Origin: Halobacteriales archaeon SW_7_65_23
Lineage (GTDB): Archaea; Halobacteriota; Halobacteria; Halobacteriales; Haloarculaceae
Direction of reading: 5' to 3'
DNA length: 58,051 nucleotides
Assembly (NCBI GenBank): GCA_003022725.1
Contig: PXSQ01000055.1
Location: 1-58,051, forward strand
Part shown: piece by piece, positions 33,958 to 57,739 of the stretch
Position numbering within the stretch: position 1 is the first letter of the stretch
How the letters are laid out: the number at the start of each line of letters is the position of its first letter
Program-made: the position numbers and the translations under genes
The notes under the pieces: model-generated
Seen by the model: the letters and a program-made list of their open reading frames with translations, nothing else
Databases searched by the model: none
Told to the model about the DNA's origin: nothing

Positions 33958-34536
33958 ATGAGCGACGACGAACGCGACGACACGGCAGGCGAGCCGACGG
34001 CTGTGGTGCTCGACGTGCTCCCACACGGACGGACAGAGGACGACCGGCCGCAGTACCAGAAGGAGCCACTGGCCTACGCGGTCGACGTCGAGAATTTCCG
34101 ACTGTACGAACTCGTACTCGACGAGAACGCGGACATCTCGTTCGGCGACGACATCGACCTCGAGGGTGCCGGGGGACTTCAGCGCGTCAACCACATTGAG
34201 TACGACGACCTGCCGAGCGGCGCGAGCGCGGAACTCGACTACGCGATCGAGGACATTGTCGAGGCGGACGAACGTCGCTTCGTCGACTTCTATAACGACG
34301 CCCAGCCGATCACCCTCCGCCTCCACCAGCTGAACCTCCTCCCCGGGATCGGCAAGAAGCTCCGCAACAACATCCTGGACGAGCGCAAGCGGGCTCCCTT
34401 CGAGAGTTTCGACGACATCGAGGAGCGCATCAGCGGCCTCCACAACCCCGAGGAGGTGCTCGTCGAGCGGATCATGGAGGAGATCCGCGAGGAGGATCTC
34501 AAGTACCGGATCTTCGCCCGCCACGACGAGGAATGA
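33958..34536 (+). CDS. DUF655 putative RNA-binding protein
   Basis: A 192-aa protein with an N-terminal OB-like part (LAYAVDVENFRLYELVL) and a helix-hairpin-helix at LNLLPGIGKKLRNNILDE (about 122-140). This is the DUF655 family, almost always next to rsmA in Archaea and suspected to act in ribosome or RNA metabolism. Its stop overlaps the rsmA ATG by 4 nt. TTTAAGTGAGG about 27 nt before the ATG is a possible promoter. Confidence 0.92.
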   Translation: MSDDERDDTAGEPTAVVLDVLPHGRTEDDRPQYQKEPLAYAVDVENFRLYELVLDENADISFGDDIDLEGAGGLQRVNHIEYDDLPSGASAELDYAIEDIVEADERRFVDFYNDAQPITLRLHQLNLLPGIGKKLRNNILDERKRAPFESFDDIEERISGLHNPEEVLVERIMEEIREEDLKYRIFARHDEE

Positions 34537-35387
34537 CCGACGAGGGGTTCCGGGATCCGGACGCGCTCCGGGCCCGGGCGGGCGTCGCCGGCGACCCGAA
34601 CGCCGACCAGCACTTCCTGGTCGACAACCGCGTCCTCGATCGGCTGCCGGGATACGTCACTGAAGCAGGATTTGACACCGCAGATGTCCTCGAAATCGGC
34701 GGCGGGACGGGCGCGCTGACCGACCGGCTACTCGCGGTGGCAAAGCGGGTCACCGTGATCGAGCGCGACCCGCGGCTGGCGGCGTTTCTCCGCGAGGAGT
34801 TCGCCGACGACTGTGAGGCCGGGCGACTCGATGTCGTCGAGGGCGACGCCCTGGAGGTCCCGCTGCCCGGGTTCACGACCTCGGTGTCGAACCTGCCGTA
34901 CGGCGTCTCCAGCGAGATCACGTTCCGCTTGCTGCCCCGCGGGAAGCCGCTGGTGCTCACGTTCCAGCGGGAGTTCGCCGAACGGATGGCTGCCGAACCC
35001 GGCACGCCGGAGTACGGACGGCTCTCGGTGACGGCGGGCCACTACGCCGAGGTCGAGATCGTCGAAACGATCCCGAAGGAGGCGTTCGATCCGCAGCCGG
35101 CTGTCGAGAGCGCTGTCGTGCGGACACGGCCGCGGAAGCCGGCCTACAGCGCCCCGGACGACGACTTCTTCATGGACTTCCTGCGGGCCGTGTTCACCCA
35201 GCGCCGCAAGACGATGCGCAACGCGATCCGCAACACCGCTCACATTTCCGGACTCGGCGACCCGGACGCCGTCGTCGCGGCCGCCGACGAGGAGTTGCTG
35301 AGCCAGCGGGCTGGCAACCTCTCGCCGGCCGCGTTCGCCCACCTCGCAACCGTCGCCTGGGAGAGGGGTGACCCCGACCCGGAGTGA
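34533..35387 (+). CDS. rsmA: 16S rRNA (adenine-N6,N6)-dimethyltransferase
   Basis: A 284-aa KsgA/Dim1 enzyme that dimethylates two adjacent adenines near the 3' end of 16S rRNA. Visible motifs are QHFLVDNRVLDRL, the SAM-binding VLEIGGGTGALTDRLL (about 50-65), VIERDPRLAAFL and the catalytic SNLPYGVSSE (motif IV NLPY). The C-terminal RNA-binding domain (FTQRRKTMRNAIRN) is complete. It overlaps DUF655 and the next gene by 4 nt each. Confidence 0.95.
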   Translation: MTDEGFRDPDALRARAGVAGDPNADQHFLVDNRVLDRLPGYVTEAGFDTADVLEIGGGTGALTDRLLAVAKRVTVIERDPRLAAFLREEFADDCEAGRLDVVEGDALEVPLPGFTTSVSNLPYGVSSEITFRLLPRGKPLVLTFQREFAERMAAEPGTPEYGRLSVTAGHYAEVEIVETIPKEAFDPQPAVESAVVRTRPRKPAYSAPDDDFFMDFLRAVFTQRRKTMRNAIRNTAHISGLGDPDAVVAAADEELLSQRAGNLSPAAFAHLATVAWERGDPDPE

Positions 35388-36022
35388 GTGTCGTGCCGGA
35401 CCGGGACGAAAAGTCGAACGAGGATGGGGAGAGCGACAATCAACAACCGCGCCTGGCTGAACTGCGCGAGGTCGAGACGGTGTACGGGCCGGCGGAGGAT
35501 TCGCGCCTGCTCGCAGAGGCGGTCCTTGAACACGTTTCGGCTGAGGACGCCGTGCTCGACGTCGGCACTGGCTCCGGATACGTCGGCGTCCGCCTGCAGT
35601 CCGAGGCCGGTGTGTTCGTCGTCGGATCGGACCTGAATCCAGACGCCTGCCAACAGGCCGCCGACAGCGGACTCCGGGTCGTCCGGGCGGACATGTTCGA
35701 GCCGTTCCGGGACGGAAGCTTCGACGTGGTATGTTGCAACCCGCCGTACCTGCCGACGCCGCCCGAACGGGAGTGGGACGACCCCATGGAGCGGGCGCTG
35801 TCGGGCGGCCCGGACGGTCGCGCGGTCGTCGATCCGTTCCTGGCCGGCGTCAGCCGGGTGCTGAAACCCGACGGCGAGGGGTTCCTGCTGATCTCGACGC
35901 TGACTGGTCCCGACGAGGTACGGGAAACAGCCACAGCCCACGGGCTTGAGACGAACGTGGTCGCCGAGGAATCGCACCCCTTCGAGCGGTTGCTCGTGTT
36001 GCGGCTGCAGCAGTGTGGTTGA
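35384..36022 (+). CDS. HemK2-type N5-glutamine methyltransferase
   Basis: A 212-aa SAM-dependent methyltransferase with VYGPAEDSRLLAEAV, SAM motif LDVGTGSGYVGVRL (about 64-77), and the glutamine-methylating signature CCNPPYLPTP (about 118-127). Archaeal/eukaryal HemK2 proteins methylate the GGQ glutamine of release factor aRF1. It starts at GTG overlapping the rsmA stop (GTGA). The unit rpoF-DUF655-rsmA-hemK2 is a common haloarchaeal arrangement. Confidence 0.9.
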   Translation: MSVVPDRDEKSNEDGESDNQQPRLAELREVETVYGPAEDSRLLAEAVLEHVSAEDAVLDVGTGSGYVGVRLQSEAGVFVVGSDLNPDACQQAADSGLRVVRADMFEPFRDGSFDVVCCNPPYLPTPPEREWDDPMERALSGGPDGRAVVDPFLAGVSRVLKPDGEGFLLISTLTGPDEVRETATAHGLETNVVAEESHPFERLLVLRLQQCG

Positions 36023-36234
36023 GCGCACCGAATGATCGGAGAAACCTCCGGTTACTCGATCCTCCGATTCGGATGGGTCGGCGTACCTCGTGACCGCGCT
36101 TTACGACCAGGACTTCGGGAAAGGCAAGGTGCGGCTACTTACGCAGCCGAGGTTGAAGGGGATTTATTACAATACAGATAGGCCTGAAAGTGATTGACGG
36201 GTATCCGTAGCGACTCGTGGACCCAAGTTCAATT

Positions 36235-37233
36235 ATGGTTCGAGATCAACAGTACTCACCAGGACGGCAGGACCAGCGGAACGAATCACGACAGCAGTTC
36301 GGCCAGCAGGACGCCGGCTACGGCCAGCAGGCCCGCGGGGATAGACTCGGCCAGCAGGGCCACGAGCAGGGCCACGCGAGCAATCAGAGCCGGCAGGGCT
36401 ACCAGCAGGGCGGCAGCCTGGGCGAACGGGGCCGCGAGCAGGGACAACAGAGCCAGCACGGCAGCAGCGGCCAGCGCCAGTTCGGCATGCAGGGCGAACA
36501 TGGCCAGCGGGGTGGACGAGGCAGTCGTGGCCAGCAGGGACAGCAGGGGCATCTGGGCCAGTCACAGGGCCGGACCGGCCAGGCTCACGGCCAGCAGTAC
36601 AGCCAGCAACGGGACCAACAGCGCGACCAGGGCCGTGGTCGGTACGGCCGCAGCGGCCAGCACGGACAGAGGAACCGTGGCCGCCAGCAGTACAGCCAGC
36701 AGCGCCAGCACAGCGACGACGGGGGAATCACCGACAAGGTGCGCAGGGCAATCCCAGGGATGGGAGGCGACCAGAACCAGGGTCGCCAGCGCGGCAACCA
36801 AAGCCGCCAGCACGGCCGCAACCAGGGTCGTCAGCACGGCGGTCGGCAGGCCGGCCACCGCCAACGCAACAGGCAGGACCAGGCGCATGGGCTCCAGCGG
36901 GGTCCTAGCCAGCAAGGCCACGGGCACGGTCTCCAGAGCGGTCACCAGCAGGGGCAACACCAGCAGGGCCTGACCCGGGGTCGCAGCGACCTCCAGGGTC
37001 GGCACGACCGGAGCGGCCAGCAGCAGGGTCAGCACGTCCAGCGCGGCGAGCAGCACCGGTCCGGCAGTCGGAGCGGCATCTCCGGTGGGCAGCAGGCGAC
37101 GCGGAGCCCGCAGCACGGCCAGAGCACCCAGCAGGGGAGCCAGCGGAGTCAGCGGTCCCAGGAGCGCACTCCTCAGCGGCGCCAGTCCAGTCAGAACCGC
37201 GACGACGAGTACACCCCCTCCTGGCAGATCTAG
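36235..37233 (+). CDS. Gln/Gly/Arg-rich low-complexity protein with a dehydrin-like K-segment
   Basis: A 332-aa protein made mainly of Gln, Gly, Arg, His and Ser, with repeats such as GQQ, GQHG, RGQ and QQYSQQR. It has very few acidic residues and is strongly basic, opposite to the rest of this proteome. One ordered-looking motif stands out: GGITDKVRRAIPG (163-175), flanked by DD and MGGD. It resembles the K-segment of plant dehydrins (KKGIMDKIKEKLPG). The C-terminus ends DDEYTPSWQI. GTG at 36217 is an alternative start. TATA-like GATTTATTAC (36161-36170) lies upstream. Role unknown; a desiccation- or condensate-related role is a guess. Confidence 0.7.
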   Translation: MVRDQQYSPGRQDQRNESRQQFGQQDAGYGQQARGDRLGQQGHEQGHASNQSRQGYQQGGSLGERGREQGQQSQHGSSGQRQFGMQGEHGQRGGRGSRGQQGQQGHLGQSQGRTGQAHGQQYSQQRDQQRDQGRGRYGRSGQHGQRNRGRQQYSQQRQHSDDGGITDKVRRAIPGMGGDQNQGRQRGNQSRQHGRNQGRQHGGRQAGHRQRNRQDQAHGLQRGPSQQGHGHGLQSGHQQGQHQQGLTRGRSDLQGRHDRSGQQQGQHVQRGEQHRSGSRSGISGGQQATRSPQHGQSTQQGSQRSQRSQERTPQRRQSSQNRDDEYTPSWQI

Positions 37234-37369
37234 CGGCTCGACGCGAACCGGTGACTGGTCCCCGCTGCTCTCTCCAGAAGCAACACGACCGGAGCTGACG
37301 CCGCGCAACGAGTGTGCTGCAGCGCACAAAACGCAGGGCTCATGCTGGTCCACCCGCTACAGGGCGCCA

Positions 37370-38424
37370 ATGAGCAAACCCGATCCCGAGGTGTACGAGC
37401 AGGGGCGGGGGATGGACGCCCACAACCAGGCGATGCGGGAGATCCGGGCGCGCAACGACGCGAGCTACGATCCCCGGGAGCCGACCCGCGCGGCTGCCGG
37501 TGGGCCCGCGCCGGCGGCTGTACGATGTGTGGCTACGTCGCAGAGAGCGTCGAGGGTGGGTCGGTCGCCCACGAGGACCTGCTGGCACAGATCGACGCCT
37601 GCCTCGATCACGAGGCCGAGAACATCGGTGAGCAAAGCTCACCGGGCAGTCGGACACAGTCCAACGACGCCGAGGAGCGGGCGGGCCAGGTGAAGATCTA
37701 CACCTCCGGCTCCTTCCTCGACGAGCGCGAGATTCCGCCGAAGACCCGGGCGGCGATCGCCGCGAGGTTCGCAGACCGCGACCGGATCGTCGTCGAATCG
37801 CTCCCGGACTTCGTCGCCGAGGGGAAGATCGCGGATTTCACAGAGCAGGGCATCGAGACCGACATCGCCGTGGGGCTGGAGACTGCCACCGACCGGATCC
37901 GCCACGACTGCGTCAACAAGTACTTCGACTTTGCCGAGTTCGAGCGCGCGGCCGCTGACGCGGAGGCGGCTGGCGCCGGCGTGAAGGCGTACCTCCTGTT
38001 GAAGCCGCCGTTCCTCTCGGAGTCGGAGGCCATCGACGACATGCAGCGCTCCGTCCGGCGCTGCAGCGGCGTCGACGGCTGTCACACCGTCTCGATGAAC
38101 CCCACCAACGTCCAGAAGTACACGATGGTCGAGGAGCTGTACTACAACGATGGCTACCGCCCGCCGTGGCTCTGGAGCGTCGCCGAGGTGCTGGACTCGA
38201 CTGCCGACAGGGACGTCATCGTCGTCTCTGATCCCGTCGGCCACGGCAGCGACCGCGGCCCCCACAACTGCGGCGAGTGCGACGACCGCGTCCAGCGCGC
38301 GATAAAGGACTTCAATCTCCGGCAGGACCCGTCGGTGTTCGAGCAGGTGTCCTGCGACTGTGAACTCACCTGGGAGACCGTCGTCGAGCGCGAACGGAGT
38401 TTCTCGATGCCGCTGGTGCAGTGA
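37370..38424 (+). pseudogene. Disrupted archaeosine biosynthesis radical SAM gene (RaSEA-like)
   Basis: The first frame starts at ATG 37370 and reads MSKPDPEVYEQGRGMDAHNQ through PREPTRA, the RaSEA N-terminus. At about 37488 the frame changes. From 37492 another frame continues GCRWARAGGCTMCGYVAES, containing the Fe-S cysteines, and runs to the stop at 38424. About 20 residues normally between PTRAW and NTGGCRW seem missing, with a net frameshift. The rest (KIYTSGSFLDERE, KAYLLLKPPFLSE, VSMNPTNVQKYT) is intact. RaSEA acts with ArcS to make archaeosine at tRNA position 15. A recent lesion or an assembly error is equally possible. Confidence 0.75.
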
Positions 38425-57043: not shown

Positions 57044-57739
57044 TTAGGTCGCGTTAATTTAGAGGATGAGGCGGACGAGTTCTACGTGTCTATGCCAGAA
57101 TTCGACCGCCTCAACGGACGTATCGTGTGGATAGACGTGTCGTTTGTGGAGCGCCAGCGGACTCCCGAGTGGGCGATTCAAGTTGGTATCCGGTGTAACT
57201 TTACAATCATATCAATATAGAACACTAGTCATATATCGAATAATTGGGAGTCGACAGGAGTCCTGTCGCTATTCATAACTGGGTCCACAACGCCGAGTTA
57301 CAGCCAATATCGACAGTGACCGCGGATCAGATCGCGGTTGACGAAACGATGATCCGTGTCACTGGTCACGAGCACTGGCTGTACGGCGTTGTCGATCACT
57401 CTACCAACGAGATCATCCACGTCAGCCTCTTTCCGGCGACGACGAAACAGACGACACGGTGGTTTCTCGCCGAGCTACATCGTCGATGCCAACTCGACGA
57501 CCCTGTGTTTCTCGTCGACGGCGCGAGCTATCTCGGCACTGTCCTCGACGAAGATGGATATCGATTCCAGGTGATTTCTCACGGGAATCGAAACGCTGTC
57601 GAACGTGTCTTCTGCGAAATAGAACGACGAACATCATCGTTCGCCAATAGTTTTAGCCATGTCACGCTTGAGACAGCACAATCCTGGCTCAAAGCCTTCA
57701 CAGTCTATCACAATGCACGCCAAAACTAACGCGACCTAA
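57044..57739 (+). mobile_element. IS6-type insertion sequence with 13-bp terminal inverted repeats
   Basis: TTAGGTCGCGTTA (57044-57056) and TAACGCGACCTAA (57727-57739) are perfect inverted ends. The about 700-bp element contains one transposase gene on the plus strand. Size and transposase match haloarchaeal IS6 (ISH15-like) elements. No 8-bp target duplication is seen: the flanks GTTTGTAC and TCTGATAA differ, so the element may have been rearranged since insertion. Confidence 0.8.
57092..57729 (+). pseudogene. Frameshifted IS6-family transposase
   Basis: The first frame reads MPEFDRLNGRIVWIDVSFVE and ERQRTPEWAIQVGIR, the start of ISH15-like transposases, and then stops after IISI at 57220. 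A second frame from 57244 carries the rest: VHNAELQPIS, first Asp in IAVDETMIRV, second Asp in FLVDGASYL and the Glu in NAVERVFCEIERRTSSF, so the DDE triad is present. About 20 residues of the HTH region between the two parts are garbled. This copy should be unable to transpose without help. Confidence 0.8.

Follow-up and report, generated by a model that had tools for sequence, protein, structure and literature searches.

The proteins of salt-in haloarchaea are expected to be acidic, and a gene for a strongly basic protein in such an organism raises the question of what that protein is and what it could do there. The window analysed here is a stretch of 58,051 nucleotides of contig PXSQ01000055.1 from Halobacteriales archaeon SW_7_65_23 (assembly GCA_003022725.1). 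On its forward strand, positions 36235–37233 hold 332 open codons followed by a stop, and the translation is rich in Gln, Gly, Arg, Ser and His (25.9, 19.9, 14.8, 9.3 and 6.0 per cent, respectively), with a pI of 11.8, a GRAVY of −2.08 and no Cys. A previous reading of the letters alone (hereafter, the sequence-only reading) had singled out this gene for its basic composition amid acidic surroundings, and both observations hold: six other window proteins that were tested (RaSEA in part only) have pI values of 4.25–4.71 and 1.8–3.7 per cent Gln. The contrast in pI with the surroundings is real, and the window protein is an exception among acidic neighbours. The remark that it has hardly any Asp or Glu was overstated, as these make up 23 of the 332 residues (6.9 per cent), against 50 Lys and Arg, for a net charge of +27. 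A conserved and probably disordered protein that is as basic as this, and so rich in Gln, Gly, His and Arg, departs from the acidic proteins of halophiles and calls for a reason.

The gene is present in two other species of the genus, the MAG Halobacteriales archaeon QS_4_66_20 (genome G006, locus L012) and SW_10_66_29 (genome G007, locus L013), where it is flanked, as in the window, by genes for a HemK-like methyltransferase and the archaeosine enzyme RaSEA (family names of flanking genes are those of NCBIfam). The three proteins are 332 (window), 371 (G006) and 319 (G007) residues long, and in DNA alignments of the three species made without codon forcing, the gap runs are all multiples of three (117; 99, 93 and 45; and 93, 45 and 18 nt). 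Because the frame is open in two other species, the gaps keep it, and a motif of the protein recurs in three further genomes (see below), the ORF is, on comparative evidence, a real gene. Residues 121–151, within the polar N-terminal arm (residues 1–162; 36235–36720, plus strand), are missing from the G007 relative. The polar C-terminal arm (residues 183–332; 36781–37230, plus strand), which ends in DDEYTPSWQI, lacks a 39-residue stretch of G006, of which G007 has 33 residues.

Between the arms lies the K-segment-like stretch that the sequence-only reading had reported in the middle of the protein: GGITDKVRRAIPG occupies residues 163–175, and its K is the sole lysine of the protein. The longer unit GGITDKVRRAIPGMGGDQNQ (residues 163–182; 36721–36780, plus strand) is the one that relatives repeat, with three copies in one of them and two each in two others.

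By whole-protein search alone, the window protein is an orphan beyond G006 and G007. When it was searched against 59 near genomes, eight gave matches at E ≤ 1, and only those of the window's own genome, G006 and G007 were real. A whole-protein profile (A1) matched 6 of 146 genomes of the taxonomic family at E ≤ 0.1, with the same three real, and 8 of 391 genomes of the class, where G000 and G006 were real and no new relative appeared. Weak whole-protein matches look like other genes or frames, either from their sequences (L067, L069, L071 and L072) or from a scan for Gln and the motif (L004–L008); L068 and L073–L075 were left out of this reading. A search with a fragment gave matches in 7 of the 18 genomes of the genus at E ≤ 10, of which three were real, and two of the weak ones were read. 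Two betaproteobacterial matches (L014 and L015, 30 per cent identity) were set aside as low-complexity likeness. In 282 kb of loci, window included, no other ORF reaches 12 Gln per 50 residues, except for one frame in L014.

The motif itself reaches further. A profile of 28 residues around it, built from three rows (A3), matched a single 300-aa open frame of G117, a genome of another genus in the same taxonomic family, three times (E = 3.9e-7, 1.0e-4 and 1.1e-3). The protein encoded there is 280 aa long and Gln/His-rich, and carries three copies of the motif, KLTERVEDAVPGLGSDQNQ, NVTDQVQGAIPGLGDDQNQ and SITDRVQDAVPGMGGDQNQ; its genome is 99 per cent complete in 6 contigs and may be that of a cultured strain. 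Once the profile had been extended by the G117 copies (A4), it matched G146 (one match, E = 2.8e-8) and G140 (E = 6.1e-7 and 0.0028), genomes of a third genus whose proteins have, on reading, two motif copies each. Homologues that keep the motif, for which the sequence-only reading had proposed a search, thus exist in G006, G007, G117, G140 and G146. In the 146 genomes of the taxonomic family, A4 gave matches in nine at E ≤ 0.01. Six were kept; G001 was dropped as HisG-like, and G150 and G062 were dropped since they are not Gln-rich and have no GxDQxQ tail on reading. The remaining A4 matches, with E values of 8.5e-4 or higher, belong to unrelated frames or resemble HisG, and loci L079, L080, L092, L101 and L102 were dropped after reading.

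A profile of nine motif copies (A5) revealed no new carrier among 391 class genomes, where 58 had matches at E ≤ 0.003 and all of these except G000, G006 and G117 were short HisG-type matches, or among 392 phylum genomes, where the one match at E ≤ 1e-4 was the window's own; both sets are even samples of larger groups, with some genomes in common, and any true member that scores below the HisG background would have escaped the search. Within its taxonomic family, the protein family therefore occurs in 6 of 146 genomes, with 140 having no detectable copy (incomplete MAGs may hide some), and no carrier was found outside this taxonomic family among the sampled genomes of the class (391) and phylum (392). 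This patchy occurrence suggests gain and loss.

Chance matches to the motif profiles most often fall in the C-terminal domain of HisG (PF08029), whose haloarchaeal sequence xxVRxVIPGMGG comes close to the motif core. In contrast to the family, it is a folded enzyme domain with neither the GxDQxQ tail nor polar arms. At E ≤ 1, A3 had matches in at least 288 of the 391 class genomes, among the matches listed, and the A5 matches listed outside G000, G006 and G117 all span model positions 7–18 (two span 6–18 and one 8–19). All 22 A3 loci of this kind that were read and 20 of 20 new A5 loci outside the family show the same HisG-like sequence on reading, one locus that was tested is HisG_C, and the remaining A5 matches without a locus were also dropped as HisG-type. 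Loci with such a motif-like core include L081–L091 and L124–L143. We treat the likeness as a coincidence.

No relative was found in viral contigs, plasmids, PDB sequences, NCBIfam, PHROGs or PADLOC, and no Pfam family matched the window protein (E up to 1) or the proteins of G117, G140 and G146 (E up to 0.1); the low-complexity filters of BLAST and HMMER may conceal Gln-rich relatives. Among the matches listed, the open-licence literature describes no dehydrin, hydrophilin or LEA protein in haloarchaea. The six proteins form a small, patchy protein family that is apparently undescribed so far. What is new here is this family, with its one to three motif copies; its function we infer.

The six members are 279–371 aa long, with pI values of 11.2–11.8, GRAVY values of −1.96 to −2.33, 12.5–20.4 per cent Gly and no Cys, and those of G117, G140 and G146 are Gln/His/Gly/Arg-rich. 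They contain 10 motif copies (1, 1, 1, 3, 2 and 2), which follow the pattern GG[ILV]x[DE]xVxxxxPG[ML]GxDQxQ, although single copies deviate from it in places. In nine aligned copies, V9, P14, G15, D19 and Q22 of the 23 columns are invariant. The motif lysine is K in the window clade and R, Q or A elsewhere, and the charge of the motif ranges from +1 to −3. Of all Ile, Leu, Val, Met and Phe residues, 12 of 15 fall inside motifs in G117, where the three motifs make up 14 per cent of the protein length, as do 9 of 18 in G140, 10 of 18 in G146 and 4 of 19 in the window clade. The helical hydrophobic moment is 0.45–0.86 in the motifs versus a mean of 0.26–0.34 for all 9-mers, and every copy lies above the mean of its own protein.

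Shuffle controls separate the members unequally. The best ungapped 20-residue match between the window and G117 proteins is the motif, with a score of 85 where 300 shuffles reach at most 68, and that between G140 and G146 is again the motif (84 versus a shuffle maximum of 72). Ungapped 20-residue scores of the window protein with G140 and G146 (72 and 71) fall within those of 300 shuffles (maxima of 73 and 72), and for G117 with G140 and with G146 the best match is a Gln/His linker, not the motif, and lies inside the shuffle range. Because these controls failed, the membership of G140 and G146 rests on profile E-values, composition and the GxDQxQ tail.

Copies of the motif within one protein have a nucleotide identity of 0.68–0.84, a likeness compatible with internal duplication. 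Between genomes, identical motif residues are often encoded by different codons (6 of 14 for the window versus copy 3 of G117, and 8 of 12 versus copy 1 of G140), so the likeness of the motif lies at the protein level. In G140 versus G146, 21 of 40 motif residues are identical, a share hardly above that outside the motif (100 of 220), a small gap that is partly due to the low complexity of the outside. Distant relatives retain the segment two or three times, and the remainder aligns poorly. The motif is the unit by which family members are recognised, and it is repeatable.

In an AF2 model of the whole window protein (alignment of three rows), there is no secondary structure and the mean pLDDT is 44, an outcome that either disorder or the shallow alignment could produce. 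In a model of residues 151–190 (40 aa, single sequence, run without a control peptide), one helix is predicted, GITDKVRRA (residues 164–172; 36724–36750, plus strand), and the two ten-residue blocks that hold it have mean pLDDT values of 79 and 70. The GxDQxQ tail falls outside the modelled helix. The window protein, like the others of its family, is probably intrinsically disordered.

How far does the family resemble dehydrins? The literature gives the plant dehydrin K-segment as EKKGIMDKIKEKLPG (PMC8615533) and the PROSITE K-segment as [KR]-[LIM]-K-[DE]-K-[LIM]-P-G (PMC1550403). The haloarchaeal proteins share with plant dehydrins (group II LEA proteins) a hydrophilic, Gly-rich composition without Cys, and a layout in which one or several copies of a short amphipathic segment with a Pro-Gly end are set among poorly conserved polar linkers. 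Unlike in plant dehydrins, the PROSITE K-segment has no match in the six proteins (each of the 10 copies agrees at 3–4 of 8 positions), most motif copies have no lysine, the linkers are Gln/His/Arg-rich and there is an extra conserved GxDQxQ tail. The six proteins also have no Y-segment ([TV]D[EQ]YGNP) and no run of five or more Ser, features that are not found in all dehydrins, and the window, G117, G140 and G146 proteins have no Pfam match, that to the dehydrin profile PF00257 included. The sequence-only reading was right to single out the gene and partly right on its nature. Its plant K-segment survives as a short amphipathic segment with Pro-Gly and fails on the unconserved lysine, the variable charge and the few PROSITE positions. 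The dehydrin or hydrophilin layout that it proposed gains from a segment kept and repeated in distant relatives and from the helix modelled in the fragment. The more specific likeness to plant dehydrins is weakened by the lack of a Pfam family or PROSITE match. Compared in this way, the haloarchaeal family is an analogue of plant dehydrins in layout, not a member.

Two other groups offer parallels. Hydrophilins are defined by Gly above 6 per cent, GRAVY below −1 and a mean hydrophilicity above 1 (PMC4190154). All six haloarchaeal proteins lie inside the first two limits by the Gly and GRAVY ranges given above; their mean Hopp-Woods hydrophilicity is 0.32–0.66 (the scale of the definition may differ), and the literature hydrophilins of pool 3 themselves lie between −0.3 and 1 in the same paper (PMC4190154). 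Unlike hydrophilins, the haloarchaeal proteins have a specific repeated motif. The dehydrin-like proteins of fungi (Tuber borchii and others) carry a signature of their own, repeated one to nine times, and no plant segments (PMC1550403), and a dehydrin-like group that has evolved around a repeat of its own therefore has a precedent. By inspection, that signature, [GRK]-[PV]-H-x-[ST]-xxx-N-nonpolar-nonpolar-D-P-[RTP]-V-D-[SN], is unrelated to the haloarchaeal motif.

The best explanation of the family, in our view tentative and somewhat short of likely, is an action like that of dehydrins or hydrophilins. On water loss or dilution of the brine, the motif would become a short helix, terminated by Pro-Gly, whose Ile/Val/Ala face would rest against a membrane or a protein that is partly unfolded. 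The long polar arms would hold water and keep neighbours apart, and, being basic, may in addition tether the protein to acidic proteins, lipids or nucleic acid. This dehydrin-like reading is put forward because of the layout, the variable repeat number, the predicted disorder, the richness in Gly and Gln and the way hydrophobic residues cluster in the motifs, a clustering that is clearest in G117 and weak in the window clade. Counting against it, the charge of the motif is not conserved, unlike that of the lysine-rich plant segment, which reportedly binds anionic phospholipid (Koag 2009). The 140 of 146 genomes in which no copy was detected also speak against it. A weak hint of a stress role comes from G117, where a ferritin/DPS-like gene (L106, 6907–7389, minus strand) lies 217 nt upstream of the three-motif gene on the same strand; it scores below the NCBIfam cut-offs for DPS, and adjoins the family gene only in G117 among the stretches tested.

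A bolder version, which we consider doubtful, is that archaea invented dehydrins of their own: an amphipathic repeat distinct from the plant K-segment, and of separate origin, would be set one to three times in basic disordered arms and protect membranes or acidic halophilic proteins on drying or dilution. Protection of an acidic salt-in cytoplasm by a strongly basic disordered protein would be a chemistry not known to us from any other organism. If true, a separate archaeal version would amount to a natural experiment in what a dehydrin needs (a hydrophobic face and a Pro-Gly end) and what it can do without (lysines and net charge).

In the strongest rival to the dehydrin-like reading, a single folded partner would dock on the motif as a short linear site, and the protein would serve as a flexible scaffold or tether, with its one to three motif copies setting the valency and its arms acting as spacers or condensate-forming stickers. 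We regard this as possible, if on the doubtful side. Its best argument is the GxDQxQ tail, which is conserved to the same degree as the helix, lies outside the helix as modelled and would be unneeded in a dehydrin-type model. The five invariant columns amount to a directional signature beyond amphipathicity, the charge varies freely while they do not, and the copy number ranges from 1 to 3. The shuffle controls also slightly lower the odds of the dehydrin-like reading and raise those of a docking site as little. However, no partner gene is seen travelling with the family across its three neighbourhoods, and there are few aromatic residues for homotypic condensation (0.4–2.1 per cent Tyr).

It is unlikely that the family serves to bind or condense nucleic acid, with the Arg/His/Gly-rich arms on DNA or RNA and the motif as a dimer or membrane contact. 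The net charge of +27 beside acidic neighbours and the pI above 11 in all six members would suit such a role. Against this, the unit common to the genera is the hydrophobic motif and not the basic arms, the high KCl of the haloarchaeal cytoplasm weakens charge-based binding, and no family was matched in Pfam, NCBIfam, PHROGs or PADLOC. RGG-box RNA-binding proteins have, by definition, several RGG repeats, a description that the family does not fit: there is a single RGG in the window protein, three each in G006, G007 and G146, and none in G117 or G140. The RGG protein that the sequence-only reading had named as its alternative is weakened by the single RGG of the window protein.

The gene lies in three unrelated settings: between the HemK-like and RaSEA genes, next to DUF5828 and the ferritin/DPS-like gene (G117), and in a biotin-synthase (bioB) region (G140 and G146). 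In the 18 genomes of the genus, the window's own included, RaSEA and the HemK-like gene were each found in 17. Such varied neighbourhoods and the presence in only 6 of 146 genomes could mean that the gene is accessory, either mobile or subject to rapid gain and loss, and has no single conserved cell function, being tied, for example, to mobile elements. Six congeners of G117 have DUF5828 and no family gene within the fetched 1.5 kb, and an IS6-type transposase sequence lies less than 2 kb from the gene in G117 and in G146 (the latter below the NCBIfam cut-off). Yet IS elements are common in haloarchaea, the nearest window match to the two IS6 queries (IS6 being the only type searched) is 19.8 kb away, and viral contigs, plasmids and PHROGs held no relative; we judge this explanation highly improbable. 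The IS6-type transposase-like sequence of the window, at 57074–57717 and about 20 kb from the gene, is 51–53 per cent identical to that of G117.

Selection on the reading frame was assessed from synonymous changes, which were compared with a simulation preserving base and substitution types. This is a codon-substitution check of the sort proposed by the sequence-only reading, and two of three pairs bear it out: the sense frame has an excess of synonymous changes in window/G006 (16 versus 9.8 expected; P = 0.014) and window/G007 (9 versus 4.5; P = 0.012), and none in G006/G007 (5 versus 3.7; P = 0.32). Reverse frame 1 has an excess too in window/G007 (8 versus 3.8; P = 0.0115), yet has 11–13 stops inside. 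The dN/dS of the gene, from few changes, is 0.18–0.63, compared to 0.19–0.47 for the HemK-like gene, 0.14 for KsgA and 0.03–0.06 for RaSEA. By these counts, selection on the frame is present but loose, matching the expectation for disordered arms. Differences between G140 and G146 by codon position (76/82/138) have a coding pattern. That the ORF is spurious, in low-complexity DNA where an antisense Leu/Ala-rich or other frame would be equally good, draws on the several frames open across long stretches, the excess in one reverse frame of one pair and the lack of one in the sense frame of G006/G007, and is already disfavoured, to the point of being hardly credible, by unforced DNA alignments in which every gap run is divisible by three, the sense-frame excess in two pairs, the G140/G146 codon pattern and a protein motif common to different genera with different codons. 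Two long minus-strand ORFs rich in Leu and Ala (36286–36552 and 36562–37353) lie antisense to the gene; they are not singled out by the frame tests and are probably by-products of CAG and GGC codons, which read CTG and GCC on the opposite strand.

The sequence-only reading had also given the gene its own TATA-like promoter and no operon partners. A TATA-like box, TTTATTA (36163–36169, plus strand), does form the first 7 nt of a 41-nt block (to 36203) that is identical in the three species, and it provides only modest evidence for a promoter, because the entire upstream region is 94–96 per cent identical among them. The absence of operon partners is partly right, as RaSEA starts some 137 nt further downstream, with its ATG at 37370 of the same strand, and read-through into it is possible. 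The RaSEA gene of the window (37370–38424) is missing 67 nt of G006 and G007 at a junction at about 37489/37490, and its frame is broken near the start, which may be a real lesion or an assembly error of this MAG. Upstream, the synonymous divergence between the window and G006 is 0.43 in KsgA, 0.08 in the HemK-like gene and about 0.07 in two following genes (34533–36019 versus L012), a step that looks as if there were a recombination boundary between KsgA and HemK.
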